A program made the position numbers and the translations under genes. Of a DNA stretch of 61,499 nucleotides, positions 13,418-61,499 are shown one piece after another (position 1 is the first letter of the stretch; every line of letters begins with the position of its first letter). The notes below the pieces were generated by a model. The model saw only the letters and a list, made by a program, of their open reading frames with translations, did not search any database and was not told the DNA's origin. The DNA is from a virus. The stretch spans positions 1 through 61,499 of IMG/VR virus record IMGVR_UViG_3300010885_033773. One strand, written 5' to 3'.

Positions 13418-13457
13418 GTATGCCGTTTGCCCTTTGTTTGTAGGGCTTTTGGCGGTG

Positions 13458-13497: not shown

Positions 13498-13524
13498 GCA
13501 GATAACAGACAAAAGGAAACCATT

Positions 13525-14381: not shown

Positions 14382-14393
14382 TTAAAATCGCTT

Positions 14394-14508
14394 CTAGTGG
14401 GGGTGGCTTCCTCTCCGCCCGCCACTCTCACTAGAGCAACTTCGTAGCACGGCACTGCGCTACGAAATAGAAATCCCCACCAGCCCTTATTTGGGTAGGT
14501 GGGGATTT
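14394..14508. terminator. Cluster of three hairpins, bidirectional terminator
   Basis: Three inverted repeats lie between the convergent Gam-like and holin-like genes. They are CTAGTG...GTGGC/GCCAC...CACTAG (14394-14434), TTCGTAGC/GCTACGAA (14441-14466), and AAATCCCCACC/GGTGGGGATTT (14471-14508). The last has A- and T-runs on the right sides for termination in both directions. Between 14509 and 14563 I see nothing more. Confidence 0.85.
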
Positions 14509-14563
14509 CGCCGTTCTAAGACGGCCACTGTGCGTGCCTATCGCAACGCCTGTGGTGATACTA

Positions 14564-20700: not shown

Positions 20701-22909
20701 GCCACTGTGGGGTTGTGTAAGTAGTTGGTGAAATGGCAGAAGCGGAGTGTCCTCCGGCATATCCGTAAGAGGGCAATTTTGCCGTTTGTGGAACAATAAG
20801 GTGGTCGCCCTTACCAAGAACAATTCCCTTGAATTGCCCCTGACCGTAGTCGTGCGTAAGGGTTACTTTTTTGACGGGATTGGGAGAATACGCCCCGTGG
20901 ATTTGGACACGACTTCCATCGGGAATTTGGAAATAGGCTCCGGTGTTGTTGCTAAAAATGTTTTGTTTGAACTGCTTGCAAAAAGAAATGGGCTTAATGT
21001 GAATGGTGACCTTATCCCAACCCCAGAACCACGCACCCTGACGCTTTCCTGCCCAGTGAACGTCTTTAGCGACTTCAGCATCAATAAAATTGCCGTTTGG
21101 AGCAATAATGCGGATTTTGGTGCCAGTCTTGGTGGTTCCATTGACATTTTGGGTGCCAGAACCGCCCAAGCCAGACCCGTCGGTAGCCATGTGAACGTCA
21201 ATTTGGGTAATGGGCTTACCCGGCCCGCCGGATATATTACCCGTGGTGTTCCCAACAAGGGTGGGTGCTGCGTTTTGTATCTGGTCGGTGGCTACAGACT
21301 TAATGGTAACGGCTTCACCTAAACCATAAGTATTGCCGATTTTGATGGTTTGGCTCGGCAGCAACGGGTGTTCAAGGGCGGCTATCGTTGTTTGACGCTT
21401 CCACTGCCCACCACCGCCGTTTGGGTTGTTTATCCATGTAATCTTTGTAATGCTTGTACGCCACTTGGCATAGTTAAGGTATACGGACATATTTGCCTTC
21501 AGCAAGTTGCCGGGGTCTTTGACCCAAAAATAATTACGCTCGTTTTTGTGCTGGGGGTCAACCCCCTGCGTGATTTCAAGAGAGGTGATATTGCCAGGGT
21601 TGCCTGCGTCAGACGTAGCGGTTGCGCCAATTGCAGTCCAGCGAACTACGCCGGGAGTAGCAATTGGCTTGCCATACATTGTCACGTCGTAGGTGTAAAC
21701 CAGTTCCCCTGCCGAGCCGGTAAAAATGTCGTTTTGAAGTCCAATAATGACGGGCGACCACTGATTGTGTGCCGTTCCCGAACCACCAGTGTTTGTGTAT
21801 GGGTTGTAGTTGCGTAAAACAATGGTAAAAGTATCTGGCGTAGTTGTTGTGCCGTTCATACCGTTTGTTACCAAAATGTTTTCACTACCAATAGTCACCC
21901 AAAAGGTTCCTGAAATTGGAAATCCGTTTGCAGCGGTCAATGTTCCGTTTTTACCAGAAACGGTAAATGTGTTTCCCGTGCTTGCGCCCGCCAAAAGCCC
22001 ACCAACGGTGGCTAGATAGCCCGTAGAACCGACATTGAGGGTGGTGATGTATGTGCCAGCCGAAAGGGCATTTGTGTTGGTGGTAGCCGTGTGTCCGTAG
22101 AAGACACTTGTTTGGGCGGTGTCTCTAGTGGTCGTTCGCCAATCGCCAATGGTTTGCGCCATTCCACCATTGTTGTCACCGAGCAGGTTGTCCGACGACT
22201 GTATTACAAGAGTATTACTTGCCTGAGCAGTGTTGGTGTAAACCGACATAAGAGGGGGCTTGGGCTGGTCAATGAAAACGGTAATTTGCAGGTATGCCCA
22301 ACTGCTCCAAAATGGTGTTTGGTTGTGGTCTTTGGCGGCTTTAACGGCAATGTAATAAACACCACCGTCGACAAAACCCGTGTTGTAAGCAGTGGTTCCC
22401 GTGATTTGTGGCAAATAACTGTCTAGTGAAATAGACGTGCTGGCATCGCTACCCGACTGTTGCCAAATGGGGGCAGAATTATCGGCTGAAAAAGTAGCGG
22501 ATTCGTATGTAAATTGGTCAAAGATTTTCACCGACCATTGCGTTTGGGGGTCGTTGTCAAAGTCTTTGTAAACCCAACTAATGTCGTTTTCAGCACCCTC
22601 CGTAAAGGTCAACTGCGTTGCCGGAGCAACCGAAACTTGGCTCACTGTCGGTGCTGATTTGAATGTTGCCTGAACGCCAACAGAACGAAAGCCAACGCTT
22701 TGATTTTGAGGAATAGAAGCCGTTTGTTTTACTATGGCTCGGCTTAATGCTTTTTGTGTCCACTCGTCGCCATTGGGGTCTTTGGAACGAATACCGCCCT
22801 GTTGAGTGGCGTAAGCGGTTGATTTTGTGCTAACAAAACTGTCGTCGGTGGTGAAAGCCCCCGTCAAAGGGTCAAGCATTTGAAACGAAAACTTGTGGCT
22901 ACTAGCCAT
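17786..22909 (-). CDS. Giant tail/fibre protein (1707 residues)
   Basis: The protein is beta-rich, with low charge and many Thr, Ser, Gly and Asn residues. The N-terminal 250 residues (W-V-Y-K-D-F-D-N-D-P-Q-T-Q-W-S-V-K-I-F, G-G-V-Y-Y-I-A-V-K-A) look like fibronectin or Ig-like domains. The middle holds repeated modules with G-x-V-V-x-G-x-x-I and S-G-x-T-I/V-T-S-V patterns. The C-terminal ~250 residues (Y-P-L-G-S-R-Y-P-I-T-I-A-G) resemble tail proteins that bind the hub. I chose the ATG at 22907-22909, which overlaps the stop of the larger gene upstream and has AGGTG at a fair distance. Confidence 0.75.
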   Translation of the reverse strand: MASSHKFSFQMLDPLTGAFTTDDSFVSTKSTAYATQQGGIRSKDPNGDEWTQKALSRAIVKQTASIPQNQSVGFRSVGVQATFKSAPTVSQVSVAPATQLTFTEGAENDISWVYKDFDNDPQTQWSVKIFDQFTYESATFSADNSAPIWQQSGSDASTSISLDSYLPQITGTTAYNTGFVDGGVYYIAVKAAKDHNQTPFWSSWAYLQITVFIDQPKPPLMSVYTNTAQASNTLVIQSSDNLLGDNNGGMAQTIGDWRTTTRDTAQTSVFYGHTATTNTNALSAGTYITTLNVGSTGYLATVGGLLAGASTGNTFTVSGKNGTLTAANGFPISGTFWVTIGSENILVTNGMNGTTTTPDTFTIVLRNYNPYTNTGGSGTAHNQWSPVIIGLQNDIFTGSAGELVYTYDVTMYGKPIATPGVVRWTAIGATATSDAGNPGNITSLEITQGVDPQHKNERNYFWVKDPGNLLKANMSVYLNYAKWRTSITKITWINNPNGGGGQWKRQTTIAALEHPLLPSQTIKIGNTYGLGEAVTIKSVATDQIQNAAPTLVGNTTGNISGGPGKPITQIDVHMATDGSGLGGSGTQNVNGTTKTGTKIRIIAPNGNFIDAEVAKDVHWAGKRQGAWFWGWDKVTIHIKPISFCKQFKQNIFSNNTGAYFQIPDGSRVQIHGAYSPNPVKKVTLTHDYGQGQFKGIVLGKGDHLIVPQTAKLPSYGYAGGHSASAISPTTYTTPQWQESRTQTLNFTIDHLTDKPPIPFRRIALPTSGTAFPSFNSLVVTVPQFNCSFANGSSTISALSNSDAASLVVGMAITGIGIQSGTTVTSVLVTPTGNSIGISLPTTTSASARQITVAVASNAYQDYEVVMTGVPIGTTIISNTALSGTTFTITLSASGVVPVASYNPSTGAPVYNTVGSASFIPPNAHVIPAGSTSIPVCPVQVNFNYPFQCPVRIQYPALYGDNALFIKPLAAGSTNTSDISLVKLANVSWTSTNNVPVVAGQRYGLAGFSRNVVGTGTPAFTPYIDWYNEVGDLLASSSGRHSITTPYFTGNLSGSTTIGSVSTTTGLDVGNVLSGQGIPSGAYIVSISSNSIVISSAATITKSGVTISNSTSLLPGAPITFTGTTSTASTTMTSVSSTTGLVVGQYVYGYGIPTATKIASIGSGQITLSATPTIAQTGGTFRIASTGFPIGEVGGTFYYSPNGQWGQNWTPNAITGTAPTAHVIASAATFSGSGSTGTYSVPAGITTALSAGAVIVDGNGFTTTLTASASVSATSVSVRFNSLPSGGSTGLFASATRAVPRFQWINAIADDVYALCSVMFRALTPNLPNSNYVALNTQIDNLQVPVASASSGYSFDSLVINSTTKTNGSESIFLLDPSMDYGTREVVKGKNNQILWTSLTSAVAAGDTTISLNINENLASGGTLVVGYNTANAETVTIASGWDGNNPIPLSAPIFYNHPINDTVYGFTVGVSNGVIQPQATGTPVAVFNWNTDGWINTPKAHYGLTIQRSEDAGKTWVTLRDGGNVSVNSQGIATITDYEITPGAQQLYRSWATWTSPSAQQWQGEPTGSLTAPIMANTQWWISSTSNPALRYPLLVQNAFSETQKHTSGVMYPLGSRYPITIAGVVGGRDGSIDVIWNDLPNWQNFLDFLRLGEIYILLSPVENKKFYIFINSDVTWENNASSQPWRKVTIPYVETAPPNYGYTYGN

Positions 22910-25900
22910 TGGTTGCACCTAACATACCGTAGACCCCCTGTATCCCCAAGATACGGGAAAGCCTCCAGTCTAAACCATCATACATAAAGAATTCGTCAAG
23001 GTCGGGTCGGTAAGTAACGTCACCAATATTGGGACTGTCAGGCCAAGCCCAATATTGGAACGACGCTCCCTGTGTGTGGCTCTTGATAAGTGGTGAAAAA
23101 ACCGTTACGGTAAATGGGCCAGAATAACCATCGCCCGATTGCGAAACGGGTAGTGTGATGGGGTAAACGGTTTCTAACGCTTCCCCCGCATCTAGTGAAA
23201 CAGGGTATGGGGCAAAAACAAGGGCGGTAGAGTCGTATGCGTAGTTGGGGCTAAACGCCTCAAAGGAAACGGATTGGGTATTTTGTGACACAGTTCGTGC
23301 CACCGTCAATTGCTGATAGTTGTTATTTTGAGACATAATCATGGTTTGCTGGTCGTTAAAAAATGCACCAGTTCCAGTAGTCAAGTATGCGCCCGGATTT
23401 GTAATCACGCCAGCCGAAGCCGTTGTTGCGGCGTAGTTGTATTCAGAGGTGAATGAACCACCAGACCCATTGTTTATAAGAAGAGTGGTCGACCCTGCGG
23501 CGGCAGAAGCGGTTAGAAAAACCCTTTGACCGTAATTGCCGGATTGTAAATAAAAAGCCGTTCCGGCTGACAAATTGCACCCTAGTGGTGTGGTGGAAAA
23601 TGATGAATATGTCGCACCCACCGACAGGTTTTGTAGTAACCAGACATAAGGCACTTCCAATGTTGTGTACTGAATCCCAACCGGCATCGCCTTTAGAGTG
23701 ACGGGTGTCAAGTCGCTGTGTGTTTTCGAAGTAGCAAGGGTGAAAATGAGTGTTCCAAAGGTGACCGTCGCCGCTTGGGAAATCGTAATACTTCCAGAAG
23801 CCGAAGCCGTCGTAGAAATGGTTGTTCCGGCAGGTATTCCACCACCCACAATCCCTTGACCGGCTGTTAGGTAAGAGAAAGCCGAGGCGACAATGCCGGA
23901 AATGGTTGTTGGGGTTCCACTTGCTGTTGTTCCGGTAAAGGAATACGCCGTCAAGTTGATAGAACCGTTGCTGTTGTTAATACTGCCCACGACAACGGTT
24001 TCCGTGCCGAGGGTGACAGAAAAGGGCGTGCTATTCGGAATGGAATCACTAACGGCTAGTGGAATTCCAATAGAACCAGCCTCCAAAGACCCGTTGAGTC
24101 GTCCCAATTTGGGTGGTAGAAATGCCACATTTTTTCGGGTAAGGGTGGGGTATGCCTTGGGAAATCCGTCTTTTTTAGCAATACTCAAAGTAGTAGAGCC
24201 AGCAGATGCGCTGTCGGTAAGGGTGGTGGAAATGTTGGCAGTTCCATTATTGCCCGACACTAGCCACGGTTGGTTAAGGGTTGTGTGTGCCTCAACGGTG
24301 GCATTAGTGGGGCTTGAAGGATTGCTTCCAATTATTGACGGTGATGCACGATAACCAAGGGCGGCGACGGTGCCAAAATCAGCACCGCCAAGAACGGGAG
24401 TATTGGTGGGATGGGAATTTAAGAATCCCGTTCCAAGTGGGTCGTTGATTGCTGTTGCTCCACCCGTTACGGATGTGAAACTAACGGTTACCACACCATT
24501 AGTGGAGGTGACTGCCGATTGGCGTGCTATGCCCGATGCAGGGGTCGGGTATGAAACCACAAAATAGTCGGCTCCAGATACATTCCCAGTCGCTGCAGTG
24601 GTGAAAGTGCCGTTGTAAGAATTGGGCGTGACACCGGAAACATTGACGACTTCACCAGCCGTAATGCCCGATGTCGCAACAAAATATGCCGCCGCTGACA
24701 TATTGGACGTAACGGCAACACCTTTTTGATTGGTTATGGCTGTTGGTGTGTGGGCAAGAGAGGGTACGGTGAAAGTACCATCAAAACCATAATTTGTCAG
24801 TGACGAAACTGAATTGATTTTGAATGTTCCGTTGTAAGAACTTACGGTCATTCCAGTAACGTTGATATACCAATTGGCTTGAATGTTGTAGTTGGGAAAC
24901 GCCAGGGTGTAGTGATAAGTGGTGTAGCCAGCAGCGTAGGAACCAGCCGTAATCCTAATGTTTGAACCGTTGGGAATGATTTGCGTCAAGTTGATTGGCG
25001 CAAACGGATTTGCCGACGGCAGGGCGGTGGAAAAAGACGTAGAAGTAGCGTCAATAACTGACGTTCCAAGCGGGGCGTAGTTCCATGATGCCGTGCCACC
25101 ACCCTGAACTTGCGCCGTTGCCGACACGTTAAGTGCTTGACCCGTTACCAAGTTATTGTTGGCGGTGTAAAGCACGCTGTTGCTGTCGCTACCCAAAACT
25201 GCATTGGTAATACCAATGACGGTTTGTTGATTATTTATTGCCAACTGGCTAATACCAACCAAGCCAGCGTCGGTGCTTCCGGTATTGGGCAAGATTGACG
25301 TGACGGTTGTTCCTGTGGGGATGTTCCCGTAAAGCGAGTAAATCGGTTGTCCAATTTCCAAATTGCCAAGTCCTGAAACAATCCGCACGTTCTGGCTAGT
25401 CATAGCCCCATTGACCGTTGGCGAACCAGTTGTGGCGTTGGCAATTGAGAAGGTGGTGGAACTTGGAACCGTGCGAACCGTTGCCCCCACCGTGTTGTAA
25501 CCCGACGGCGTGAAGTTGCTGATAGAAACAAGGTTGCCAATGGCTAGGTTGTGGGGTTGTGCGGTGGTGTAGGTGACGTAGCCGACGCTGGGCGAACCAG
25601 CCGTTACTGCGCTAATGGAATAAACAACATCGCCAAGAATAAATGATTGACCCAAGTTCACGTTGGGCGTGACAACAGGCTCGTTGGCAACGTGGTCGTA
25701 CTGAAAAGACTGACCCTCTGCCAACTGCCAAACAACGGGGCCAGCACCGTATGTGGTTACGTCAGAGTTGTCCGTGGTTTGATACTGACCGCTAATCAGC
25801 ACCGCCTCACGATGCGTACCCGAACCAATAATCACAACATAGTTAGAGCGAATACTGTTTCCACCAGCCGACCCAAGTGTTAAATCAACAAAGGTGCGAT

Positions 25901-28900
25901 TGGGAACGGTGACATAGCCATCCGTTGTGTAGGTGTTGAAGGTCGTTTGGGCAGGATTAACAACAAACTGTTTATCCAATTGTGCTGAAATCGGCTGGTT
26001 AAGGGTTGTTCCAACGTGACTTCCTAGTGACGGTGGGGTGATGTAGGTTTTCTCAAAGTCAATGTTTGTGTAGGAGCCGAAGTATCGGTTTCCAGCAGGG
26101 TAAGCACCAACATACATACCCAAGTTGTGATGGCGAGTGATGTTGGAACTTGTAAAGAACGAACCCTGACCACTGTAATTAAAGGTGGTGGAATTAAGGA
26201 AAGAGCCTGATTGGATGTAGGTATAAACGTTATTTCCGCTTGATTCGTAGTTGTAGATGTTGTTTCGGGTCGCATCGCCGTTGGGATAGGGGGTTGCGTT
26301 CAGGACAAAAGGATTACTTACGGAGAATGCTGGTGAAACCGTAATTGTATTATTGAGGGGGTTGGTAGAAGTAACGGAAAATACAAAACCCTGCACCATG
26401 TATTTGTTGGTGATAGTGAAACCCGTTGTGTTGTTGACATAGACCGTTGCCGACGTAGAACCCTGCGTAATCTGTGCTACCGGCGTTGACCGAAGGCTGG
26501 TGATTTGGATGGGCGTTTTATACGATGGAACGCCCGTAATGTTGGCAAAAAAGTTGTTGCCATTGGTGGTTGCTAAATACGCTTGGTTTGACCAAACGGC
26601 AGGTGCGCTGTTAAAAAAAGCCGTTTCGGGGTTGTAAAACGCACCTTTAAGTGCTGAGTCAAGGGTGTAGTTTCCATTATTGACGGTTGTTGTATTGGTA
26701 GGGTTGGAGGGGGAATAGGTGGTGACGCTCTGCGTACCCGTTGCGGTAGCACTTGCGCTCAGAATGCCAAATGAATATGCGCCAGGTGTCCAGTTGGTGT
26801 TTATGGAAGATTCCGTGTAAACGTTGAGGGTTGTGGTTCCAGCAGTGATGTTGTTAGACAACTGCAAAAATTGCTCGCTATTTGCCGTTCCACCACTAGC
26901 AGTAACCGTTCCAATAACGGCGGTCATGTAGCCACCCGCCCCAGACGCAGTTGATGCCAATGCAACAGTTCCACTACGAACAATAGTGGTGGGGGAACCT
27001 GAGGCTATTTGGAAAGTGGCGTTGAAAGCCGCTTGGTTGGCAGTGGCAGTTGAGGTAATACCCGTGGTTGTGACCCATTCGCCAGCCTGATAGTTGTGCG
27101 ACGGAACCGTGTAGGTCAGGGTTCGAGTGCCCGTGGCGGTTCCACCAACTGCCACACTGGTCACGTTGACCTGAGTGGGGTCGGTGACGGTGAAACTTGT
27201 GGCAGAAGTAGCCGTGACATAAGCATTGGAAAGGTCATAGGCGGCGGTGTTGTTGGCATTTGAGCCAGTGGTGCCAGAAATACTGACCGTCTGACCGGGG
27301 ATAAATTGGTGAAATCCTGACGCACCGTTGTAGGTAACCGTTCCTGCAGAAGCCGTAGCACTTGCGGTGGTGATGGTGCCGCTCGTGTATCCCGTCGCTG
27401 CGATTTGTGTTCCCATTGGAACGCCCGTGCCATACACAAAGTCGGCAACTAAAATGTTGTAGGGCGAAACGCCGTTGATAGCGACAAACTGCGAGCCGTT
27501 GGCTGTTGCTGGAATCGCCACAGACAAAGAGTTGCTGGCGGTAGAAGTTCCAACCAATGCCTTACCAACGACATAATTAATGTCCATTACACCGTTAGCG
27601 TTAAACATGAGAATGGACTGAGTGGTAGTCGCTAGGGCATTTGGCGAATTGATTGCGTCAAAAGAAGGGGGCAACTGAACAGAGAAACTGGTTAAGCCAG
27701 TGGCCGTCGCCGTTTTGGAAATTACCATTTGATTACCAGAAACGGAAACAACGGTTGTTCCCGATGCAATTGCCGTGCTGGAAACCGTCATTCCTGAATA
27801 CACTTCGTTCTTGTTGAAGTTGGTAATGGTTACGCTGGTTGAGCCAGATACCGTGTAGCCATAAATTGTTATGGTTGGGTAGTTGAGGGTGAAAGACGTT
27901 CCCGAACTACCTATGCCCACCACTTGTGCGTATTGCGTATTAAATGCCTGCTGATAGCAGCCTTGAACCGTGACATATTGCCCAACGTTAAATGCGTTTG
28001 ACAGCGTAGTGAAAACTACATTGGTAGAGCCGTCACCGTTGTAGGTAATGGGCGAAGCCGTGGCTACACCCGTGATTAAAGTGGTTGCGCTGTTGCGGTC
28101 AATCATTGAAGTGGAGGCGGACATTCCGGTTACCGTTGCCGTGGCGGCGGTAGAAACAACCAAGTTGTAAGTGAATTGCGTATTGCTTGGAACGGTCTGG
28201 ACAATGGCGGTGATGTTGTGGTTAGTGTCAGACGAACCCTGAATGGTGACGGGCATACCAACAGTAAATCCGTGTGCGCTGCTCGTGGTTGCCGTCGCCG
28301 TAAAGGTCGTTGAGGCAATACTGGTGACGGTTGAAGAGAGGCTAAATCCTACGGTTCCCGTAATAAGTCTGTTGTAAAGGGTACTGCTGGCAGTATTGGT
28401 CGTGGCAAAAAGAGTGTAAGCGGGCGTTGATGCCGACTGACCCGAAACGTCGGTGGAAAGGTTGGTTGACGCTGCCGACGCAAGGGTAATTGTGTGGTTC
28501 GTGTAGTCGACGTAGGTGATAAGGCACGGGGGGATAATTGTCGTGCCCGAATTGTAAAGACCGCCGAACCACATACCGGGCAAAAGACCCGACGCATCGT
28601 TCGTGAAAGAACTGGCGGAATAAGCCGTTGGGCTAAGGTTTGGGTCGTAGACGTTGACGGGAAAAACATTCTGTCCATCCACGATTTCAGTAGCAACAGA
28701 GGAAGAGCCGTTAATGCCCGTTGAGGCAAAGTTGAACGCCACCGAAGAATTTGTAATATTTGTGGTGAAAGTGGAACCGTTGTACGCAGCCGATGCGTAG
28801 CCGGTTAGAACGCCGTTTGCGTCATAAACGGCAGGGTTTACAGTTGCCCTGGCGGTGGCTGTTGCCGAGCCACTAAATGTCACATAAGGGGTAGATACTG

Positions 28901-31115
28901 TAAAGGTTGTTGGGGTGGCACTAGCGATGGCAACGCCCGTCAGGTTGTAGGCGGTAGCCGTTGTAGTGAAACCCGTGACAGTAACAACTTGTCCTGCTAC
29001 AAAACTGTTGTTGCAACTGTAGGTAACAGAAAAATTGGCAATAGAACTTGCGCTAGTGACAGATGAGGTGGAAGTACTAGGTAGTGCGTAAAGGTTGCTG
29101 GGCGACACCGTGGCGATACCCGTAGCCGTTGTTCCAGCACCAAGGACAGAATCAATTTGGAAGGTGTTGTTTGAAATTGCCGTAACAAAGCCAGATGTGT
29201 TGAAGGCGGTGGTGGAAAATCCAGTTACGGAAACGCTTTCGCCAAACGAAAAGCCTTTATTGACCGAGTAATAAGTAATGCCATTAGCAACAACCGACCC
29301 CGTTCCCGAAACGGCAGCGGTGGCTGTTCCCGACAAAGTAAAAGTGTTATAACTGACACCAAAAATAAAACCAGAAACATTGTAACTAGTAGGTGAAAAA
29401 CCCGAAACCGTGACGTATTGCCCAATTTCGTAGTTGATAAACGTGTTTGCTGGGGCGGTATAGGTGATGAAATTACCATCGCTAGTTACGCCCGTTGCTG
29501 GCAAGCCCGTGACGGTCAGGTTTGCTATTGCCCCGAAAACGGTTTGCTTGGCACTGGTCACCGCAAGGTAGTTACCCTTGGTGTCGTAGTAGTCAACCAC
29601 CAGCGTTCCACTGTTGGTGCTATCCAAATTGGAAATTAACGAGCAGGTGAAAATGGTGTTACCGTTAAGTGTTGTAGAGGCGTTGGAAACAAGGGTGACA
29701 AAATAGCCCGACGAATCAACACTTTGCACAATACCGACATAGTTGTTGTTAGCGTCGGTTATGACTTGACCTGCGACAAGCGCACCTGCGTCGCCGTTGG
29801 TGAAAGTTACAACATTGTTTGGAAAAAAGATTACACCCGAACCAGTTGCGTTTTGCGACATGGTGATTTGGTTGGGGTCGGTGGCGATAGCGTTGCTCGC
29901 CACCCAAGTCTGGCAACTAGACGTAATGTACCCACCCGATACCCAAGTTCCGGTAGCGGTTGAGGTAATTCCCACCGTAGCAATCGAACCAGATACGGAG
30001 TAGGACGTAATTTGCTGTGGTGTGGTGAAATTAAACGCCGCTACGCCCGTACCGTTGACCAAAATGTTCTGCCCAACGGCGTAGGTACTGTCCGTTGAAG
30101 CATAAAAACTAAAGAAAACCTGCGAGCCGTTGCCGGTAGCCGCACTAAGGCTGTAAGAGTGTGGGTCAGAGGTGGTGAAACTTCCCGTCGCAGCGGTTAT
30201 GACCGAACCCCCTGTGGCGTTGTTGTAAACAGTAGGGGTTGCATTGGAAACGCTAACGTTGTCGCCAGTGGCAAAGGGTATTCCAGCAGAATAAGTAGAC
30301 ACCGTAAATGTCAGTGTTGGCGTGGCGGTTGAGGATGCGAGGCTGGACGTGACACCCGTCAAAGTGGCGACATTGCTGTTGGCGGTAATCGTGGTACTTG
30401 CAGGAACGTAAGGGCCTGTGACGGGCAGGTTAACAACAATGCCGTCGTTGCTGGAAACACTGACAATGTTTGAGCCGTTGGTCGTTGTAATTACGCCGCT
30501 AGGCCAAGGGGTGGTCGGAACAGAAGAGTAGCAATTGGTGGTAGTGAAATAATCAGGGATAATTTGTTGCGCCGTTGTGAGTGGTGCGTTCTCAAACGGG
30601 GCGGCGAGAGAAATTGTTGGATTTAATCCACCGCCAACGTTCGAAGGCAGCAAGTCCACATTGGGTTGTGCTGAAGCCACTACCGGAATGATGCCAGAAC
30701 CCGTAATTGGGAGGGTTTCATTCATAATGGTGAAGTTTGCTAAGAGTAGGTCTGGCGTGTAGTCGTTCGAGCCTTCCAAAATAACCGCATACTCGCCATT
30801 GGAAAAGTTGGACACGTCATTAACAAATGCCCACTTTTCACCATTTGCGTATTCGGGTATGATTTGGTAGCGTGATTGCCCGTAGGCGTAAGGAACGCCC
30901 CCAAAGGTCGCTGAACCCAACTGTGTGTAGCCAGCAAAGAACTTAGACAAATCCTCAACGTGGGCGGAATCTATGTGCCCATAGGGGTTGGTGACAGAGC
31001 CAACAACAAGTTTCGTCAAGTCGTTTTGTGCGGAGGCACCATCAGACGCACCGACCACATCCAAGTTGTCAGTTACGGTTGTGGTGGAAATGGGGTTGAG
31101 TGTAAGGATTTTCAT
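22902..31115 (-). CDS. Giant repetitive virion protein (2737 residues)
   Basis: This is the largest gene here. The N-terminal ~150 residues (T-V-T-D-N-L-D-V-V-G-A-S-D-G-A) are followed by some 25 degenerate copies of a 40-60 residue beta module. The core pattern is F/Y-x-x-G-Q-x-V-x-V-x-G-F-x-x-x-A/S-Y-N, then x-x-V-x-x-x-x-x-T-T-F-x-V. The same module recurs in tail tube, capsid and adhesin proteins of this phage. The C-terminal 150 residues (P-D-S-P-N-I-G-D-V-T-Y-R-P-D-L-D-E-F-F-M-Y-D-G) look like an attachment domain. GGGGAG lies 6 nt before the ATG. It is probably a very long flexible tail fibre or surface protein. Confidence 0.75.
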   Translation of the reverse strand: MKILTLNPISTTTVTDNLDVVGASDGASAQNDLTKLVVGSVTNPYGHIDSAHVEDLSKFFAGYTQLGSATFGGVPYAYGQSRYQIIPEYANGEKWAFVNDVSNFSNGEYAVILEGSNDYTPDLLLANFTIMNETLPITGSGIIPVVASAQPNVDLLPSNVGGGLNPTISLAAPFENAPLTTAQQIIPDYFTTTNCYSSVPTTPWPSGVITTTNGSNIVSVSSNDGIVVNLPVTGPYVPASTTITANSNVATLTGVTSSLASSTATPTLTFTVSTYSAGIPFATGDNVSVSNATPTVYNNATGGSVITAATGSFTTSDPHSYSLSAATGNGSQVFFSFYASTDSTYAVGQNILVNGTGVAAFNFTTPQQITSYSVSGSIATVGITSTATGTWVSGGYITSSCQTWVASNAIATDPNQITMSQNATGSGVIFFPNNVVTFTNGDAGALVAGQVITDANNNYVGIVQSVDSSGYFVTLVSNASTTLNGNTIFTCSLISNLDSTNSGTLVVDYYDTKGNYLAVTSAKQTVFGAIANLTVTGLPATGVTSDGNFITYTAPANTFINYEIGQYVTVSGFSPTSYNVSGFIFGVSYNTFTLSGTATAAVSGTGSVVANGITYYSVNKGFSFGESVSVTGFSTTAFNTSGFVTAISNNTFQIDSVLGAGTTATGIATVSPSNLYALPSTSTSSVTSASSIANFSVTYSCNNSFVAGQVVTVTGFTTTATAYNLTGVAIASATPTTFTVSTPYVTFSGSATATARATVNPAVYDANGVLTGYASAAYNGSTFTTNITNSSVAFNFASTGINGSSSVATEIVDGQNVFPVNVYDPNLSPTAYSASSFTNDASGLLPGMWFGGLYNSGTTIIPPCLITYVDYTNHTITLASAASTNLSTDVSGQSASTPAYTLFATTNTASSTLYNRLITGTVGFSLSSTVTSIASTTFTATATTSSAHGFTVGMPVTIQGSSDTNHNITAIVQTVPSNTQFTYNLVVSTAATATVTGMSASTSMIDRNSATTLITGVATASPITYNGDGSTNVVFTTLSNAFNVGQYVTVQGCYQQAFNTQYAQVVGIGSSGTSFTLNYPTITIYGYTVSGSTSVTITNFNKNEVYSGMTVSSTAIASGTTVVSVSGNQMVISKTATATGLTSFSVQLPPSFDAINSPNALATTTQSILMFNANGVMDINYVVGKALVGTSTASNSLSVAIPATANGSQFVAINGVSPYNILVADFVYGTGVPMGTQIAATGYTSGTITTASATASAGTVTYNGASGFHQFIPGQTVSISGTTGSNANNTAAYDLSNAYVTATSATSFTVTDPTQVNVTSVAVGGTATGTRTLTYTVPSHNYQAGEWVTTTGITSTATANQAAFNATFQIASGSPTTIVRSGTVALASTASGAGGYMTAVIGTVTASGGTANSEQFLQLSNNITAGTTTLNVYTESSINTNWTPGAYSFGILSASATATGTQSVTTYSPSNPTNTTTVNNGNYTLDSALKGAFYNPETAFFNSAPAVWSNQAYLATTNGNNFFANITGVPSYKTPIQITSLRSTPVAQITQGSTSATVYVNNTTGFTITNKYMVQGFVFSVTSTNPLNNTITVSPAFSVSNPFVLNATPYPNGDATRNNIYNYESSGNNVYTYIQSGSFLNSTTFNYSGQGSFFTSSNITRHHNLGMYVGAYPAGNRYFGSYTNIDFEKTYITPPSLGSHVGTTLNQPISAQLDKQFVVNPAQTTFNTYTTDGYVTVPNRTFVDLTLGSAGGNSIRSNYVVIIGSGTHREAVLISGQYQTTDNSDVTTYGAGPVVWQLAEGQSFQYDHVANEPVVTPNVNLGQSFILGDVVYSISAVTAGSPSVGYVTYTTAQPHNLAIGNLVSISNFTPSGYNTVGATVRTVPSSTTFSIANATTGSPTVNGAMTSQNVRIVSGLGNLEIGQPIYSLYGNIPTGTTVTSILPNTGSTDAGLVGISQLAINNQQTVIGITNAVLGSDSNSVLYTANNNLVTGQALNVSATAQVQGGGTASWNYAPLGTSVIDATSTSFSTALPSANPFAPINLTQIIPNGSNIRITAGSYAAGYTTYHYTLAFPNYNIQANWYINVTGMTVSSYNGTFKINSVSSLTNYGFDGTFTVPSLAHTPTAITNQKGVAVTSNMSAAAYFVATSGITAGEVVNVSGVTPNSYNGTFTTAATGNVSGADYFVVSYPTPASGIARQSAVTSTNGVVTVSFTSVTGGATAINDPLGTGFLNSHPTNTPVLGGADFGTVAALGYRASPSIIGSNPSSPTNATVEAHTTLNQPWLVSGNNGTANISTTLTDSASAGSTTLSIAKKDGFPKAYPTLTRKNVAFLPPKLGRLNGSLEAGSIGIPLAVSDSIPNSTPFSVTLGTETVVVGSINNSNGSINLTAYSFTGTTASGTPTTISGIVASAFSYLTAGQGIVGGGIPAGTTISTTASASGSITISQAATVTFGTLIFTLATSKTHSDLTPVTLKAMPVGIQYTTLEVPYVWLLQNLSVGATYSSFSTTPLGCNLSAGTAFYLQSGNYGQRVFLTASAAAGSTTLLINNGSGGSFTSEYNYAATTASAGVITNPGAYLTTGTGAFFNDQQTMIMSQNNNYQQLTVARTVSQNTQSVSFEAFSPNYAYDSTALVFAPYPVSLDAGEALETVYPITLPVSQSGDGYSGPFTVTVFSPLIKSHTQGASFQYWAWPDSPNIGDVTYRPDLDEFFMYDGLDWRLSRILGIQGVYGMLGATNG

Positions 31116-53420: not shown

Positions 53421-53436
53421 GGGGTCTAAATGCCCC
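53421..53436 (-). terminator. Terminator after the exonuclease gene
   Basis: GGGG-TCTAAATG-CCCC, followed by GTTT on the minus strand and overlapping the gene's stop codon. It is short, so moderate in strength. Confidence 0.55.
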
Positions 53437-54254
53437 TAGAAGGGATATTCGTCGTCTTGGCTAAACAAGGGGCAGATGTTCTTAAACGAACACCACTTGT
53501 CGCACAGGTTGTTCTTGACAGGGGGGAAGTAGCCCTGCTCAAACCAGTTCTCAATCTTGCCCCACGCCTCACGGACACGCTTTTCAGCGTAGATAACGTC
53601 AGCGTCGGTCACTTCTATGGTCAGGGTCTTGCCGAACTGAACGTAGAGTAGGCGTATTTTGGTCGGGCGTTCACCTAAGTGCTTCTCGCACAGGTAGGCG
53701 TAAATCTTGGCTGGCAGGGTCGCTGATGCCTTGTATTTGTCTTGTGGCACTTTGCCGGTCTTGTAGTCCACAATCACCAAAGAACCGTCGGGGTCACGGT
53801 CTAGGCGGTCAAGGATGCCACGCAGGGTGTATCCGCCCATATCCACGTCCATCTTGATTTCTATGCCCTCGCTGGTGATTTCTGTGGGGCTTTCCATTGT
53901 GAAGTAGGTGCGTATGTATTTGGCTAAGTCTGCGACGAGCGACTGACGACCGGCCGTATCCAATTCCATTTCAGCGCAGATTTCGGGGCTGAGTAGGTCG
54001 GGCAACAGTTCACGCATGATTTCCATAGTCAGTTCAGGCGTGCGGTCTTGTGGTGTTTCCGTAGTCCGCAGAAACAACTCTTCCAAGATGGCGTGGAACA
54101 CCGTGCCCCGATAGGTCGCCATTTTCTTGACTTCAGGCAGACGCTCAATGGTGGTGTATTGGTATTGACGTGGGCAAGTCTCAATCTGGTTCACACGGCT
54201 TGGCGAAACACCATAGGGCTTTTCGCCCAAGAACACAGATTGGGCATTGGTCAT
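53436..54254 (-). CDS. RecB/Cas4-like exonuclease with probable Fe-S cluster
   Basis: 272 residues. S-P-S-R-V-N-Q-I-E-T-C-P-R-Q-Y-Q-Y (Cys27), then G-T-V-F-H-A-I-L-E-E (near 50), G-I-L-D-R-L-D-R-D (near 150), and V-I-V-D-Y-K-T-G-K (near 165) form the PD-(D/E)XK core of the RecB nuclease family. Cys251, Cys255 and Cys261 near the end, with Cys27, fit a 4Fe-4S cluster as in Cas4 and AddB. It would resect DNA ends for the Sak4-like ATPase. The ATG starts 6 nt after a TAGGGT box, so the mRNA is leaderless. Confidence 0.85.
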   Translation of the reverse strand: MTNAQSVFLGEKPYGVSPSRVNQIETCPRQYQYTTIERLPEVKKMATYRGTVFHAILEELFLRTTETPQDRTPELTMEIMRELLPDLLSPEICAEMELDTAGRQSLVADLAKYIRTYFTMESPTEITSEGIEIKMDVDMGGYTLRGILDRLDRDPDGSLVIVDYKTGKVPQDKYKASATLPAKIYAYLCEKHLGERPTKIRLLYVQFGKTLTIEVTDADVIYAEKRVREAWGKIENWFEQGYFPPVKNNLCDKWCSFKNICPLFSQDDEYPF

Positions 54255-54290
54255 TGACCCACCCTAGTTGGTTGGTGCGACACAAGTCAA
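54252..54290 (-). promoter_or_regulatory. Leaderless promoter of the exonuclease gene
   Basis: TTGACT (54285-54290, minus strand), 18 bp, TAGGGT (54261-54266), then 6 nt to the ATG. The stretch TTGACTTG...TGTCGCACC resembles the plus-strand promoters at 13.46 and 54.35 kb, so all three may be co-regulated. Confidence 0.65.
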
Positions 54291-54295
54291 GCACT

Positions 54296-54332
54296 CCCCC
54301 AGAAATCCTTACCATTGCTGGTGATTTGGGGG
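54296..54332. terminator. Hairpin between the divergent promoters
   Basis: CCCCC-AG-AAATC pairs with GATTT-GGGGG. It lies between the ncRNA promoter and the exonuclease promoter. It could stop leftward transcription coming from 55-56 kb through the ncRNA region, or act as a regulatory site. Confidence 0.5.
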
Positions 54333-54352
54333 TTCTCAAAAAACTTTGCGAA

Positions 54353-54392
54353 TTGACTTGCTTTTGTCACACCAATACTGTATGCTGGTTTA
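54353..54392 (+). promoter_or_regulatory. ncRNA promoter, near-identical to the one at 13.46 kb
   Basis: TTGACT-17-TACTGT (or TTGCTT-17-TATGCT) on the plus strand. Over ~40 bp it differs from the Gam operon promoter at only a few positions, which indicates duplication or a shared regulator. Confidence 0.75.
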
Positions 54393-54745
54393 GTAGTCGT
54401 AGTTGGGCTATGTAGTATCCGATAGGTGTGGGATTTGCCCTAAGGCTTAGTCTGTTCTAAGGCAGACGGCGAGGGGGAACTTACTACTTAGAGGGGTGGT
54501 TCCTATTTGCGTCACGCACCACAGGGTTAGTGAGAGCAGGATGTGTCTCGGCAGGGATACAGACTGACTACTAATTGCTGGTCGCTGGAACACTTGGGGG
54601 CAAGTCGCCAGACCTATCGGGTACTACGAAAAAGCCTGACCCGTGAAAGAGGGGATGGCAAGCCTGAAGGTGTCGCTCTAGAAGCCGAGCCGTGAGACAC
54701 ACGGTAAGTCGGTGCTAATAGGGGGCGGTGGCGTTCAGGCACTCA
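54393..54745 (+). ncRNA. Candidate structured non-coding RNA (~350 nt)
   Basis: There is no ORF here on either strand, but there is a promoter and extensive pairing. A long helix of 16 bp joins 54412-54427 (GTAGTATCCGATAGGT) to 54612-54627 with one wobble. Inside it are GTCTG/CAGAC (54450-54467), GGAAC/GTTCC (54476-54503) and CTGG-AAC-ACTTG-GGGG-CAAGT-CG-CCAG (54584-54611 region). A 3' domain is closed by GCCTGAA/TTCAGGC (54662-54668 with 54734-54740) and holds CCGTG-AGACA-CACGG (54690-54704). I do not recognise a known class. No T-run marks the 3' end. Confidence 0.75.
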
Positions 54746-55015
54746 CAGGCTGAAGTTGTTGTAGTGACGAGCCTTGACGAATTCACGGTTCAGTTTGTCT
54801 GCTAATACCTTCGCCGCCCGTTCGTCACGGACACGGATGCTGAAGTCGTAGAACGGAACGCCTACGCCAAACCCAATGGTGTCATAGCGATAGAACCGAA
54901 GTTCGGTTCCCTCTTTCTCGCCGTAGTTCCAAATGACGAACCGATACTTGTCGTCACGGGCTTCCCATTCGCCCATAGGTTGCTGAACCCACGACAAACC
55001 CTTACGGCGAAACAT
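54743..55015 (-). CDS. Hypothetical protein
   Basis: 90 residues. It is aromatic-rich and beta-like (F-V-I-W-N-Y-G, L-R-F-Y-R-Y-D-T-I-G-F-G, F-Y-D-F-S-I-R-V) with a C-terminal helix. The ATG overlaps the TAA of the gene upstream (TAATG). No family is recognised. It is transcribed toward the ncRNA and may end antisense to its 3' part. Confidence 0.6.
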   Translation of the reverse strand: MFRRKGLSWVQQPMGEWEARDDKYRFVIWNYGEKEGTELRFYRYDTIGFGVGVPFYDFSIRVRDERAAKVLADKLNREFVKARHYNNFSL

Positions 55016-56271: not shown

Positions 56272-57774
56272 CTAGAAGAGCGTGTCATTCTTACCTGCCT
56301 TGTCCGTTGCCCACGCAACACGGGCTTCAATAATCGCCCAATATTCCTCGGTCATTTCGCATCCAATCCACTCAAAGCCTTCCAAGATGGCGGCAACTGC
56401 GGTAGTGCCCGAACCAAGGAACGGGTCAAGCACTGTTCCGCCTGGGGGTGTCACCAACTTGACTAGGTATCGCATTAGGGCTAGTGGCTTGACGGTGGGG
56501 TGGATATTGGCAGTTACCTTGGAGCGAGTCTTATATGGCACTTGCATTGCGTCTTGGCCTTCATCTCGCCCGGTCAGCATTTGTTCCGGCAGTCCTTCCA
56601 GCCCAGCGTTGCGCTCGGACTTGGAAGCCTTAGCGCAGTAGAAGAAACGTGCGGCGGAGCCTTCATCGCCAAAATCACGGATAGTGCCTTTGGTTGGCTT
56701 TATCCGATACTGGCTTTCATCAAGACGACCTTCATCATTTTGAACAACACGGTATTTGCCTTTATCGGTTGCTGGAAACCCTGCCAGCACTTCCTCTGAC
56801 CCGTCAAGGATTACGTTGGCAGGCCAGCGACCTTCAGGCTTGTAGGTGGCGACTTCCTTGCCGATAAGTGCTGATGCGCCGAACGCACCCTCAATCGCAC
56901 CCTCGCTGTGTTTTTGACGTTGCACACGGTCAAAGTTCACCTCACCGCTTGCGTAGCCCACCCTCGACCCGTCAATGTTCAACGCACCAGTTCCGTACGT
57001 CAGAACGTTGTTAGCGACAGTCCCGATTAGTGGCTTGCGTGCGACCACGATTGGTTCGTGGGCTGGCTTTAGAGCAGTACCCCAGCCTTGCCATTGTTGG
57101 GCTTCGGGTGAAATGGCTTTGTTGCTCAGTTGTTTGCCAGTGAAGTTGCCAACAGTGTTTCCCGTTCCGCCAGCAAGACCACCCGTAGCCTCAACATAGC
57201 CACGCTCGGCAACATTGTTGGGAATAATCCAGTCCCACTCATCAGACAAGCCAATGACCCGTTTCATTGTTTTCCATTTTTCGGGCGTTGGGTGGTTGGT
57301 ACTCCAATAATCCTTGCCGTCTGTCTTGGCATAAGAGCAAGCGGTGAAGCCACATTCATCGTCTATTTGCTTACGAGGCTTTCCGCAGTTGGCGATTTGC
57401 TCGCCCAACCATTTCTTGAACCCAATGGTGGAAAGTGCTTCAGGTTTTTTGTCTATCGCCTTACTCACGTCAAGCGACTTGGGAAATCCCGAACCGTAAA
57501 TCCAGTGGATGCTGTCACGTATCTCAAATCCTGCGTCCTCTATGGCTACGACCATGCGGTGATACGTCCGTGTTCCGCCAAAGGCGAGCAGATGCCCGCC
57601 CGGTTTCAGAACACGCAGACACTCTTGCCAAACGGCGACGTTATAAGCGATACCCGTGTTATCCCACGATTTGCCCATAAACGACAATTCATAAGGTGGG
57701 TCGGTGACGACGCTATCTATGCTGTTGTCCGGCAACGTCTTGAGGGTATCTAGGCAACTGCCCTTGAGCAACAT
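56272..57774 (-). CDS. DNA methyltransferase C (500 residues)
   Basis: Motif IV T-D-P-P-Y-E is near residue 26 and motif I D-P-F-L-G-S-G-T-T near residue 445, so it is beta-class. Between them is a large target-recognition region with an HTH-like insert (F-K-K-W-L-G-E-Q, then R-K-Q-I-D-D-E-C-G-F), followed by W-Q-G-W-G-T-A-L-K-P-A-H-E-P and a single G-S-A-A-R-F-F unit. It is the shortest of three tandem paralogues. Its ATG overlaps the stop of the next paralogue upstream. Confidence 0.9.
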   Translation of the reverse strand: MLLKGSCLDTLKTLPDNSIDSVVTDPPYELSFMGKSWDNTGIAYNVAVWQECLRVLKPGGHLLAFGGTRTYHRMVVAIEDAGFEIRDSIHWIYGSGFPKSLDVSKAIDKKPEALSTIGFKKWLGEQIANCGKPRKQIDDECGFTACSYAKTDGKDYWSTNHPTPEKWKTMKRVIGLSDEWDWIIPNNVAERGYVEATGGLAGGTGNTVGNFTGKQLSNKAISPEAQQWQGWGTALKPAHEPIVVARKPLIGTVANNVLTYGTGALNIDGSRVGYASGEVNFDRVQRQKHSEGAIEGAFGASALIGKEVATYKPEGRWPANVILDGSEEVLAGFPATDKGKYRVVQNDEGRLDESQYRIKPTKGTIRDFGDEGSAARFFYCAKASKSERNAGLEGLPEQMLTGRDEGQDAMQVPYKTRSKVTANIHPTVKPLALMRYLVKLVTPPGGTVLDPFLGSGTTAVAAILEGFEWIGCEMTEEYWAIIEARVAWATDKAGKNDTLF

Positions 57775-60323
57775 TAGAACAACCCGTCTTGTGTCGGTTG
57801 CGTGATTTGGTTTTCAGCCCACGCAATACGGGCATCAATGATTTGCCAATAGTCGGGGGTGATTTCACACCCAATCCAATCAAAGCCTTCCAAAACAGCA
57901 GCGACGGCGGTAGTGCCTGAACCCAAGAACGGGTCTAAGACTTTTCCACCAACCGGCGTGACCAGACGAATCAAGTGTTGCATCAGTGCGACGGGCTTGA
58001 CCGTTGGGTGGAAGTTTTGTGCTGGTTTGGTGTCGAAACGCTCGAAACCTGCCGAAACGGTGTCGCTTGTGTTATTTGCAGTGCGAAACATTTTGCTGTT
58101 TGAGCGTATTTCTAGTCCTTCCAGACCAGCGTTCTTATCCGCCTTACTGGCTTTTGCCATGTAGATGAAAGGTGGAAAGTCTGGTTTGGTCTTTGTAAAG
58201 AAGCGAGAAGCAGAGCCACCGTCTGCGTAGCCGTCGGCTGCGTTCTTTTCACCAGCCAAGCCGACACTGTGTTCGTTGTCGCCACCCTTGCGAAAGCCCG
58301 ACGTAGAACCGTTGCCCGTGCTGGCTGTTTCGGGGAATTGCACTGTTGGGCAGTCTATTGAACACTCCCAACCCGTCGTAGTGAAAAACCGTGAGGCAGA
58401 ACCGCTATCGCCGTATTCTGCGTCGTGATTTACACCACCAATGCCGAACATGGAACTGTCAGACCTATCAACCGACGGGTCATAGGGCTTGGGGCTTTTG
58501 CCGGTGTTCGGGAACATTTGGGTTGGACAGTCTGCCGAACATTCCCATTCTGTCTGGGTAAAGAACCGTGCCGCCGAACCACTATCGCCACCAAAGTTCT
58601 GTGTGATTTCCCTACCAGCGTAAGCACCGAAAGTTCCAGCCTCTTTGCCGTTGTCGGCGTGGTTGGGGTTGAGAGAGCCTGACTTGGTGCTAGGGAAGTT
58701 CATCGTGGGGCAGTCTGCCGAGCATTCCCAACCCGTCGTGGTGAAAAACCTAGATGCAGAACCCACGGTATTGTCGCTACGACTAGTCTCGTAGTTCGTT
58801 GCTTCCCCATCATTATTGAAGTGTCGTGCGCCTTGTGTGGTGTTCCATGTTCCACCCTTCGCTTCGGGGAACATTTGCGTCGGGCAATCGGCGGAACACA
58901 CCCATTCGGTTTGCGTAAAGAAACGGGCGGCCGAGCCTTCATCTCGGTAGTCGTGTGACCTTTCGGTGAGGTTCTGCTCGCTACCTCCAAACATCAAACC
59001 ACCCTTTTTGCCGTTATTTGGATTTCCGATACGAGTGCTTTTACTGTCAGGGAAGTTCAGCGCAGGGCAACCCTCAGCGCAGTTCCATACGTTCGTGGTG
59101 ATGTTTTGTCCTACGAAACCGTCATGTTCGTAGCCATTTACAAATCCCGAACTTGCCTTTGCGCCACCCCCTGCGATTTCACTAGTCGTGCCGACCTGAC
59201 GGCAGAGAGGCGAGTGTGTGATAATCGTGTTGGCAGGCCACCTGCCAAGGTCTTTCAGTTTGGATAGGGCTTCCTGCTGACCGGGGCTTTCCAAAACCCT
59301 TGCGTTGTATTCATCGTCAGTTTCACCTTCCCGTCGGGTGGCAAGTTTCGTGATGGGGCGACCCTTTAGGTCGTCAAAGTTTTCACCACTTGCGCCAACA
59401 CGGGTAGCGTCAATGTTGATAGCCCCCGTTCCCCATTTGAGAACGTTCTGGGCGACGGTCTTTTCACTAAGGGGCTTACGAGCGACGACGATGGGTTCGT
59501 GAGACGGTTTCAGGGCTGTTCCCCAGCCTTGCCATTGTTGGGCTTCGGGAGTGGCTGGGGCGGTGATGTCAACCCTCGTTGCCTTTAGACCGTACTCGTG
59601 AGAACCACCAGCCGCTCCATTTTTTACCCCCACCGACTTACTTCCCACAACCGCACGTTTGGCTTCCTCAATAGAGGTGAAAGGCAACCCAAACTTTTCA
59701 CAAATCAAATTGAACTGACTTGCTGTTGGCAAGTTCATGCCAAGTTCCCAGTTGGCGACACACCCCGTCAAGTTGCCTGTTTTGGAAGGGAACAAGGCGG
59801 CGATTTCTTTTTGTGAAATCCCGTTTTCCTCACGCCAATTGCGAAGCCACTGTCCAAACCAGCCAATGTCGGCACCACCACGCTTGTCTATGGCCTTGCT
59901 GATGTCCATAGATTTCGGAAAGCCACTGCCGTATGTCCAATGGATACTGTCTCGGATTTCAAATCCGGCATCTTCGATAGCGCACGCTAGGCGGTGATAA
60001 GTCCTTGTTCCCCCAAAGGCTAGGAAGTGCCCACCCGGCTTTAGAACACGCAAGCACTCCTTAGCGATTTCAGTAAACCACTCTTGGAACGCCAGCATTT
60101 CCTTGTGACCCTTGTTGTAGCGAACACCACTTGTAAATCCCTTGTCGTGGAACACGCCGTTGGTCTTTTTGTCGGTCACGGATACGACTTCAGCATTACG
60201 CCACGGTGCATCCCAATCTTTCCCCATAAATTCCAATCCGTATGGGGGGTCGGTCACAATGCTGTCCACCGAATTGTCCGGCAGGGTTTTCAGCATTTCT
60301 AGACAGTCGCCTTTGAGAAGCAT
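57774..60323 (-). CDS. DNA methyltransferase B with expanded repeats (849 residues)
   Basis: It has the same plan as its neighbours: T-D-P-P-Y-G (near 26), an Xre-like HTH insert (E-N-G-I-S-Q-K-E-I-A-A-L-F, V-A-N-W-E-L-G), W-Q-G-W-G-T-A-L-K-P-S-H-E-P, then motif I D-P-F-L-G-S-G-T-T near 810. In between, a unit of 58-62 residues occurs five times (W-x-C-x-x-x-C-P-x-x-x-F-P, then G-S-A-A/S-R-F-F-T). Its relatives have one. The start ATG at 60321-60323 overlaps the upstream TAA. The repeats make it unusually long. Confidence 0.9.
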   Translation of the reverse strand: MLLKGDCLEMLKTLPDNSVDSIVTDPPYGLEFMGKDWDAPWRNAEVVSVTDKKTNGVFHDKGFTSGVRYNKGHKEMLAFQEWFTEIAKECLRVLKPGGHFLAFGGTRTYHRLACAIEDAGFEIRDSIHWTYGSGFPKSMDISKAIDKRGGADIGWFGQWLRNWREENGISQKEIAALFPSKTGNLTGCVANWELGMNLPTASQFNLICEKFGLPFTSIEEAKRAVVGSKSVGVKNGAAGGSHEYGLKATRVDITAPATPEAQQWQGWGTALKPSHEPIVVARKPLSEKTVAQNVLKWGTGAINIDATRVGASGENFDDLKGRPITKLATRREGETDDEYNARVLESPGQQEALSKLKDLGRWPANTIITHSPLCRQVGTTSEIAGGGAKASSGFVNGYEHDGFVGQNITTNVWNCAEGCPALNFPDSKSTRIGNPNNGKKGGLMFGGSEQNLTERSHDYRDEGSAARFFTQTEWVCSADCPTQMFPEAKGGTWNTTQGARHFNNDGEATNYETSRSDNTVGSASRFFTTTGWECSADCPTMNFPSTKSGSLNPNHADNGKEAGTFGAYAGREITQNFGGDSGSAARFFTQTEWECSADCPTQMFPNTGKSPKPYDPSVDRSDSSMFGIGGVNHDAEYGDSGSASRFFTTTGWECSIDCPTVQFPETASTGNGSTSGFRKGGDNEHSVGLAGEKNAADGYADGGSASRFFTKTKPDFPPFIYMAKASKADKNAGLEGLEIRSNSKMFRTANNTSDTVSAGFERFDTKPAQNFHPTVKPVALMQHLIRLVTPVGGKVLDPFLGSGTTAVAAVLEGFDWIGCEITPDYWQIIDARIAWAENQITQPTQDGLF
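58190..59095 (-). repeat. Five tandem ~180-bp units in methyltransferase B
   Basis: Each unit encodes C-S-A-D-C-P-T-x-x-F-P near its start and G-S-A-S/A-R-F-F-T-x-T at its end. The ends are well conserved and the middles differ, suggesting duplication followed by divergence. Confidence 0.8.
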
Positions 60324-61499
60324 TAGAACAACCTTTCCATAGTGGTCGCAGGCTTTTCCACCTGCGTTTGTGCCCAAGCGGTGCGACCCTCAATAATCGG
60401 CCAGTAGTCCTCAGTCAGTTCGCAACCGACCCATTGGCAGTTTTCTAGCAGTGCCGCTACCGCCGTCGTTCCGCTACCCAAGAATGGGTCAAGAACCAGA
60501 CCGCCCCGTGGTGTTACCAGACGAACCAGATGGCGCATAAGGCTCACGGGCTTCACGGTGGGGTGAAAGTTCTTGGCAGGGGCTTTGATAGAGCCGTACT
60601 TGTCGCCCACATCGGTCAAGCCACCACCACCGACGGTTTGCTTTGTTTCCAAATCACCAAGACCTTCGCTGCGTTCTCGGCTAGAGGCTTTGGCTTGGTA
60701 GATAAAGGGCGGAAAGTCGATTTCGTCGTATTCCGTGTTGGTGAAAAAACGTGAAGCACCGCCATTGTCGTTCATTGTGCGTGCTTGGTTGGGCTTGTCT
60801 TTGTGTGTGCCACCTGCGCCAAACGCACCGATTTCACTACGCCCACGAACCGCAGGAAAAGTTCCGCCGGGTCTGATACCACTTTGCGTATCAAGTTCCA
60901 GCGCAGGGCAACCCTCAACGCAGTTCCAAATCGCTGTGGTTGATTCCGTAACCGCACCGCCGTTGTTGTTTTCACCACCCTCGAACGACCCTGCGAACCC
61001 CTTGCCGTTGGTGGTGATGATAGTTTCGCTTTTTGTTCCTACCTGTCGGCAATCCGGCGAGTGGGTCAAGATGGTGTTGGCAGGCCAGCGTCCTAGCGAA
61101 GTGTCGGGCCGTTCTACATCCTTGCGCCCTTCATCATTGACATCGGGGGCTGAACCAGCCTTAAGGTTGCTAGTCACTTTCCCTTGTGGCGTGGCACTTG
61201 CTCTATCTGCTTCGCTCTGATGCGCCACCCGTGACCCGTCAATGTTCAGCGCACCAGTTCCGTAAGTCAGAACATTATTAGCCACTGTGCCGACGACAGG
61301 CTTTCTAGCAACGACGACAGGCTCGTGGCTCGGCTTTAGAGCAGTACCCCAGCCTTGCCACTTTCTAGCGTCGTCTGTGGCTGGTGCTTTGTATTCGTAT
61401 GTACCCGTAGTGGAGTTAGCGTTCCAGCCATTTTCGTCATCAAACGGCTTGACATTTCGTGAGCGTGTGCCAACTACCTCGGTACGCTCCGCTCCAGCC
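60323..61499 (-). CDS. DNA methyltransferase A, partial (runs off right edge)
   Basis: The last ~391 residues are seen; the frame is open to the window's right end. Visible are W-Q-G-W-G-T-A-L-K-P-S-H-E-P, A-N-N-V-L-T-Y-G-T-G-A-L-N-I-D-G, one W-N-C-V-E-G-C-P unit, G-G-A-S-R-F-F-T, then motif I D-P-F-L-G-S-G-T-T. Motif IV must lie outside. It is the third tandem paralogue and is coupled to methyltransferase B by TAATG. Confidence 0.9.
   Translation of the reverse strand, partial: AGAERTEVVGTRSRNVKPFDDENGWNANSTTGTYEYKAPATDDARKWQGWGTALKPSHEPVVVARKPVVGTVANNVLTYGTGALNIDGSRVAHQSEADRASATPQGKVTSNLKAGSAPDVNDEGRKDVERPDTSLGRWPANTILTHSPDCRQVGTKSETIITTNGKGFAGSFEGGENNNGGAVTESTTAIWNCVEGCPALELDTQSGIRPGGTFPAVRGRSEIGAFGAGGTHKDKPNQARTMNDNGGASRFFTNTEYDEIDFPPFIYQAKASSRERSEGLGDLETKQTVGGGGLTDVGDKYGSIKAPAKNFHPTVKPVSLMRHLVRLVTPRGGLVLDPFLGSGTTAVAALLENCQWVGCELTEDYWPIIEGRTAWAQTQVEKPATTMERLF

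Follow-up and report, generated by a model that had tools for sequence, protein, structure and literature searches.

A structured RNA gene with mosaic domain architecture in a phage and its relatives

Relation to described phage RNAs

Large structured phage RNAs without known function are so far few and unusual, GOLLD and ROOL being the examples, and in the phi29 pRNA the subunits are joined via loop–loop pairing. GOLLD combines a conserved 3' part with a variable 5' part (PMC12286853). Here, we analysed a 61.5-kb virus record (61,499 nucleotides, hereafter the window), in which almost all genes lie on the minus strand and whose major capsid protein showed 52% identity to that of Arthrobacter phage Ottawa and approximately 49% to those of Laroyevirus and Microbacterium phages. 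The window carries a predicted structured non-coding RNA on the plus strand (54,393–54,752, the 3' end being undefined). Its length is approximately 350–360 nt, within a range of approximately 160–610 nt among the members of the family to which it belongs.

No relevant match to Rfam 15 was found for the window RNA at E ≤ 10, nor for the family members L019, L033, L061, L139, and L156 in cmscan searches at E ≤ 5–10; the weak matches fell mostly on terminator hairpins. The GOLLD and ROOL covariance models matched neither the window gap nor the five members (E ≤ 5–10 for GOLLD), and there was no Rfam match to tmRNA, RNase P, 6S, SRP, group I and II introns, or the phi29 pRNA. ARAGORN likewise detected no tmRNA (a tRNA-like domain plus a tag ORF) in the window. 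These results agree with the initial annotation, which could not place the RNA in GOLLD, ROOL, tmRNA, RNase P, or 6S RNA, and its suggestion of a new phage RNA class is supported by a family of homologues and by covariation as well as by the absence of Rfam matches. The roles that it proposed (host takeover, packaging, or regulation) are hypothetical.

GOLLD and ROOL are the closest described RNAs in behaviour. GOLLD is also a large structured RNA encoded by phages, without known function and found in lake samples too, and its conserved 3' region, less conserved 5' region, and kissing loops (putative here) have counterparts in the present family (PMC12286853). ROOL is likewise an ornate RNA of phages and prophages without known function and with kissing loops (again putative here). 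Membership in either class, however, fails on covariance-model match and size: GOLLD exceeds 800 nt and showed no similarity at E ≤ 10, while ROOL, to which there was no covariance-model similarity either, has a different secondary structure and is longer than the window RNA. The tRNA proximity of GOLLD also has no parallel, as the only two tRNAs detected in the window by ARAGORN (2,637–2,789) lie 51 kb away. The phi29 pRNA is also the product of a phage RNA gene, but it differs in fold and size and lacks covariance-model similarity. Retron ncRNAs and OMEGA (TnpB) RNAs are similarly compact structured non-coding RNAs of mobile elements; in contrast to their setting, neither a reverse transcriptase (PF00078) nor a TnpB-type zinc-ribbon domain (PF07282) is present in the record, and covariance-model similarity is again absent.

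Genomic setting and promoter

The RNA occupies an intergenic gap of 488 bases (54,255–54,742), flanked by a RecB/PD-(D/E)XK-type exonuclease gene (53,436–54,254, minus strand; PHROG 69, E = 1e-27) and a 90-aa gene with no assigned function (54,743–55,015, minus strand). As originally noted, the gap contains no credible ORF, the sole listed one being a chance plus-strand frame (54,170–54,415) that crosses the promoter, and the RNA runs against the direction of nearly all genes. The exonuclease and 90-aa genes are the conserved 5' and 3' neighbours, respectively: in the window, L005, L061, and L065, the RNA lies between them on the strand opposite to both, and in other members it is found at different genomic sites. 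One extra gene separates the RNA from the exonuclease in L005; it had been read as a sign of an insertion hot-spot, a reading that was revised, the RNA itself being present at the same L005 site.

A sigma70-type promoter (54,358–54,386, plus strand) precedes the RNA, with a -35 element TTGCTT (54,358–54,363), a 17-nt spacer containing a GTCACACC element, and a -10 element TATGCT (54,381–54,386). Transcription is predicted to start at 54,392/54,393, where the first predicted helix begins. A consensus promoter scanner run on the window missed this promoter; it was aligned by eye to that of L156 (TTGTGACACCGGTACTG TACACT GGTTTA). The 43-mer at 54,354–54,396 has a single further copy in the window, likewise plus-strand (13,456–13,498, 93% identity), and this second promoter copy (13,459–13,489) is located approximately 34 nt upstream of a plus-strand ORF, preceding the ORFs 13,525–13,734 and 13,806–14,381 (Gam-like). 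Most homologues have a sigma70-like promoter of the same layout at the expected position; a simple scanner picked other sites in L221 and L013, although in the latter the family motif TTGCTT-17-TAGAGT is readable by eye. The private plus-strand promoter proposed for the RNA from the window sequence is upheld by its readable elements, its second copy, and its counterparts in homologues. Because copies of this promoter precede mostly ordinary genes in relatives, it counts as a regular promoter in these phages. The -10 element and the initial transcribed sequence (GGTTtAtGTAG...; 54,381–54,405, plus strand) constitute a leader common to most members; its profile matches the window at E = 0.047, and most other members fall between 1e-4 and 0.07.

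A strong hairpin (CCCCCAgAAATCC...GGTGATTTGGGGG) lies at 54,296–54,332, flanked by the exonuclease promoter and the RNA promoter, which point away from each other. The GTCRCACC element of the RNA promoter is repeated upstream of the exonuclease (54,262–54,290, minus strand; CTTGTGTCGCACC), and may serve phages of this group as an operator or activator site. Elsewhere in the window, four ORFs match DNA methyltransferase families (1,407–2,597, 56,272–57,774, 57,774–60,377, and 60,323–61,285), three of them consecutive and sharing a common C-terminal domain; the end of the related contig L003 aligns to two of these. An ORF of 2,737 aa (22,902–31,115), adjoining one of 1,710 aa (17,786–22,918), is unusually long for a 61-kb phage record.

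The predicted transcript stops where the 90-aa gene has its 3' end, or reaches slightly into that gene, and in most members a terminator directly follows the conserved 3' core of the family (D4), where it could serve as a switchable attenuator. Both features would suit a cis-acting element, namely a leader, attenuator, or antisense RNA for a neighbouring gene. We consider this very unlikely, given that the contexts read in the window, L005, L061, and L065 contain no downstream gene on the strand of the RNA, the downstream genes being oppositely oriented, that the overlap with the 90-aa gene is only approximately 10 nt in the window, and that some members are located at other sites. No convincing antisense target was found inside the window, where nothing exceeded exact matches of 13 nt.

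Homologues, predicted fold, and covariation

Outside the window, exact patterns and blastn recovered the sequence solely in two further IMG/VR contigs, both from the same phage as the window (no difference over 8.5 kb; three differences in 13 kb). The orphan status suggested by these scans was overturned by nhmmer --max: among related phages gathered via the exonuclease and capsid gene (approximately 1.5 Mb searched), the window RNA alone as query retrieved two divergent homologues (E = 3.9e-6 and 1.1e-5) that match over most of its length. An independent scan with a gapped pattern built on the conserved motifs of the homologues added contig L139, and profiles and covariance models widened the family to about 13 phage lineages. 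Its members, the window phage included, belong to a clade of lake-water phages. Several related phage records had no detectable copy. The covariance model R1 gave no match in Arthrobacter phages Ottawa, Waltz, Salgado, and Kovu, Microbacterium phages ValentiniPuff and Lyell, or Roseobacter phage RDJL6, and model R2 gave only a weak 38-nt match among these isolates, in Ottawa (E = 0.12), which was taken as chance. The extra contigs from one pattern scan had no member-level score, and an 18-mer scan of bacterial genomes returned 12 matches, none with extended similarity.

The region 54,386–54,750 has a minimum free energy of -162.8 kcal/mol on the plus strand (z = -7.17; none of 100 shuffles was as good), a score reached on this strand only, vs -108.6 kcal/mol (z = -3.24) on the minus strand. 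In a composition-corrected sliding fold scan of the window, the region ranked second among plus-strand stretches. The top stretch, an island of four strong hairpins at 14,385–14,570 (z = -8.1 for the plus-strand RNA), separates the Gam-like gene from the convergent ORF 14,564–14,851 and is probably a two-way terminator region.

Domain D2 (54,412–54,627, plus strand), to which R2 assigned 154 bits by construction, is predicted as a long helix closing a three-arm junction. The 16-bp long-range helix previously noted between 54,412–54,427 and 54,612–54,627 is exact in all 16 pairs, with a mean pair probability of 1.0, and extends inward through 54,429–54,431/54,608–54,610 and then 54,432–54,441/54,597–54,606. 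D2 is followed by a diverged D3 segment (GGCAAGCCTGAAGGTG...; 54,642–54,678, plus strand; profile match at E = 7e-4) and a 3' hairpin domain particular to the window copy (54,662–54,740, plus strand; pair probabilities 0.91–1.0). At least five hairpins had been described initially, including a closed 3' domain. Such a number is indeed predicted, and those within 54,412–54,627 are backed by covariation, but the closed 3' domain, although predicted with high probability, has no covariation support.

The D2 alignment was made from sequence only, and the RNAalifold consensus recovered the long helix and the arms. Two-sided changes were found in 33 of the 72 pairs, vs 15.5 ± 2.6 in shuffles and 5–15 in slid controls, the shuffle counts for D2 overstating significance because the domain is represented by no more than about four independent lineages, L033 being nearly a duplicate of L139 and L156 of L147. 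The fraction of cells paired was 91%, compared with 34–49% when slid, and the identity of the window D2 to the other copies was 45–57%. To avoid circularity, reciprocal structure tests were used. The window-only structure, placed on the homologues, showed two-sided changes in 33 of 81 pairs and 78% of cells paired (36–47% when slid), while the homologue-only structure was satisfied by the window at 56 of 73 pairs, vs 29 ± 4 for shuffled sequences (maximum 44 in 2,000 shuffles). Within the 16-bp helix, the inner ~12 pairs are kept with compensation and the outermost 4–5 are shared in part; compensatory changes, which the initial annotation had proposed to look for in this helix, are therefore present in homologues. 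One-base gaps in the D2 alignment argue against coding. D4 also showed two-sided changes, in 12 of 35 pairs (6.6 ± 1.6 when shuffled). The fold is under selection.

The two strands of the long helix also form a 30-bp imperfect inverted repeat (54,412–54,441/54,598–54,627, 87%), as would be expected of a DNA-level element serving in replication, packaging, or mobility, with an incidental transcript. Such a role is extremely unlikely in view of the plus-strand bias of the fold energy, the 24 G-U pairs among the 123 of the plus-strand fold (which exist on that strand only), the pairs maintained through G-U in homologues, and the layout of promoter and terminator.

The loops of two D2 arms are complementary to each other: UUCUAAG (54,455–54,461, plus strand) is identical in all six D2 copies, and its partner is CUUAGAG in the window (54,487–54,493, plus strand), where pairing is retained by G-U, and CUUAGAA in the five others. 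No two-sided change occurs in this pair among the six copies. The two loops probably pair as a kissing loop or pseudoknot, either inside one molecule or between two. Together with phage encoding, strong folding, and the conservation of these complementary loops, the GOLLD-like division into a conserved 3' and a variable 5' part (PMC12286853) could suggest that kissing loops hold copies together in an oligomer or cage made of RNA only, as in GOLLD or ROOL. This is unlikely: the sizes are far below that of GOLLD, Rfam similarity is absent, the tRNAs of the window are distant, and the loops could as well pair inside one molecule.

Mosaic architecture and proposed role

The family is a mosaic of a common 5' leader, interchangeable domains D1, D2, and D3, the conserved 3' core D4, and, usually, a U-tailed terminator. 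All of these parts occur in L026. The leader, D1, D3, and D4 are followed by a terminator hairpin in L009 and L005 and by a terminator in L221, while L139 and L033 have D2, D3, D4, and the terminator, with the leader detected in L139 only. Shorter combinations are leader–D1–D4 (L088), leader–D1 (L229, and L013 at a contig end), and leader–D2 (L156), and a compact form in L061 and L065 consists of D4 and the terminator in approximately 160 nt. In some members, a GAGCGA-AGCGG-like segment is found in both D2 and D4 (weak profile cross-matches at E = 0.02–0.06 in L033 and L156), perhaps an internal duplication.

The window copy comprises the leader, D2, and the diverged D3. D4 followed by the terminator, a membership feature seen in most other members, is absent from it, as R1 gave no D4 match and no U-tailed terminator was found; the window copy may for this reason be reduced or altered. 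Together with the divergence of D3, this would also fit a decaying relic without a functional 3' core, the other members being functional. We regard decay as quite unlikely, since the D2 pairs are retained, the promoter is intact, and L139, a member with D4, has a poorer fold z-score (-4.2) than the window copy (-7.2).

A stand-alone RNA gene, equipped with a promoter of its own and evolving as a mosaic, occupies this locus. Under the proposed mechanism, the promoter would drive a plus-strand non-coding RNA that would fold into a long coaxial helix closing the three-arm junction of D2, where two of the arm loops probably pair, and would continue into the 3' domain. The folded RNA may then act in trans, most likely as a scaffold or decoy; trans action is suggested by the lack of downstream genes on its strand where the context was readable. 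Because folded junctions and complementary loops are kept while helix sequences drift, it may bind a protein or the ribosome, or other copies of itself through kissing loops. The gene would be accessory rather than essential, given that close relatives have no detectable copy and that domains are exchanged.

The existence of a genuine structured RNA gene whose family is absent from Rfam is very likely; the scaffold or decoy mechanism, which draws on genomic context, is tentative and in itself rather doubtful. For the two jointly, we estimate a probability of roughly 60%. The odds appear about even that the family represents an undescribed phage RNA class that evolves by swapping folded domains while keeping the 3' core conserved, in many cases at one genomic site, and provides a trans-acting mosaic effector of infection that is perhaps self-assembling.

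The family RNAs are small (down to approximately 160 nt), have a clear promoter and terminator, and offer a conserved core along with variants in which domains are naturally missing. For these reasons, they should be more amenable to expression and dissection than the giant RNAs. The exchange of domains reveals which parts are dispensable, and the use that phages make of such RNAs becomes directly testable.
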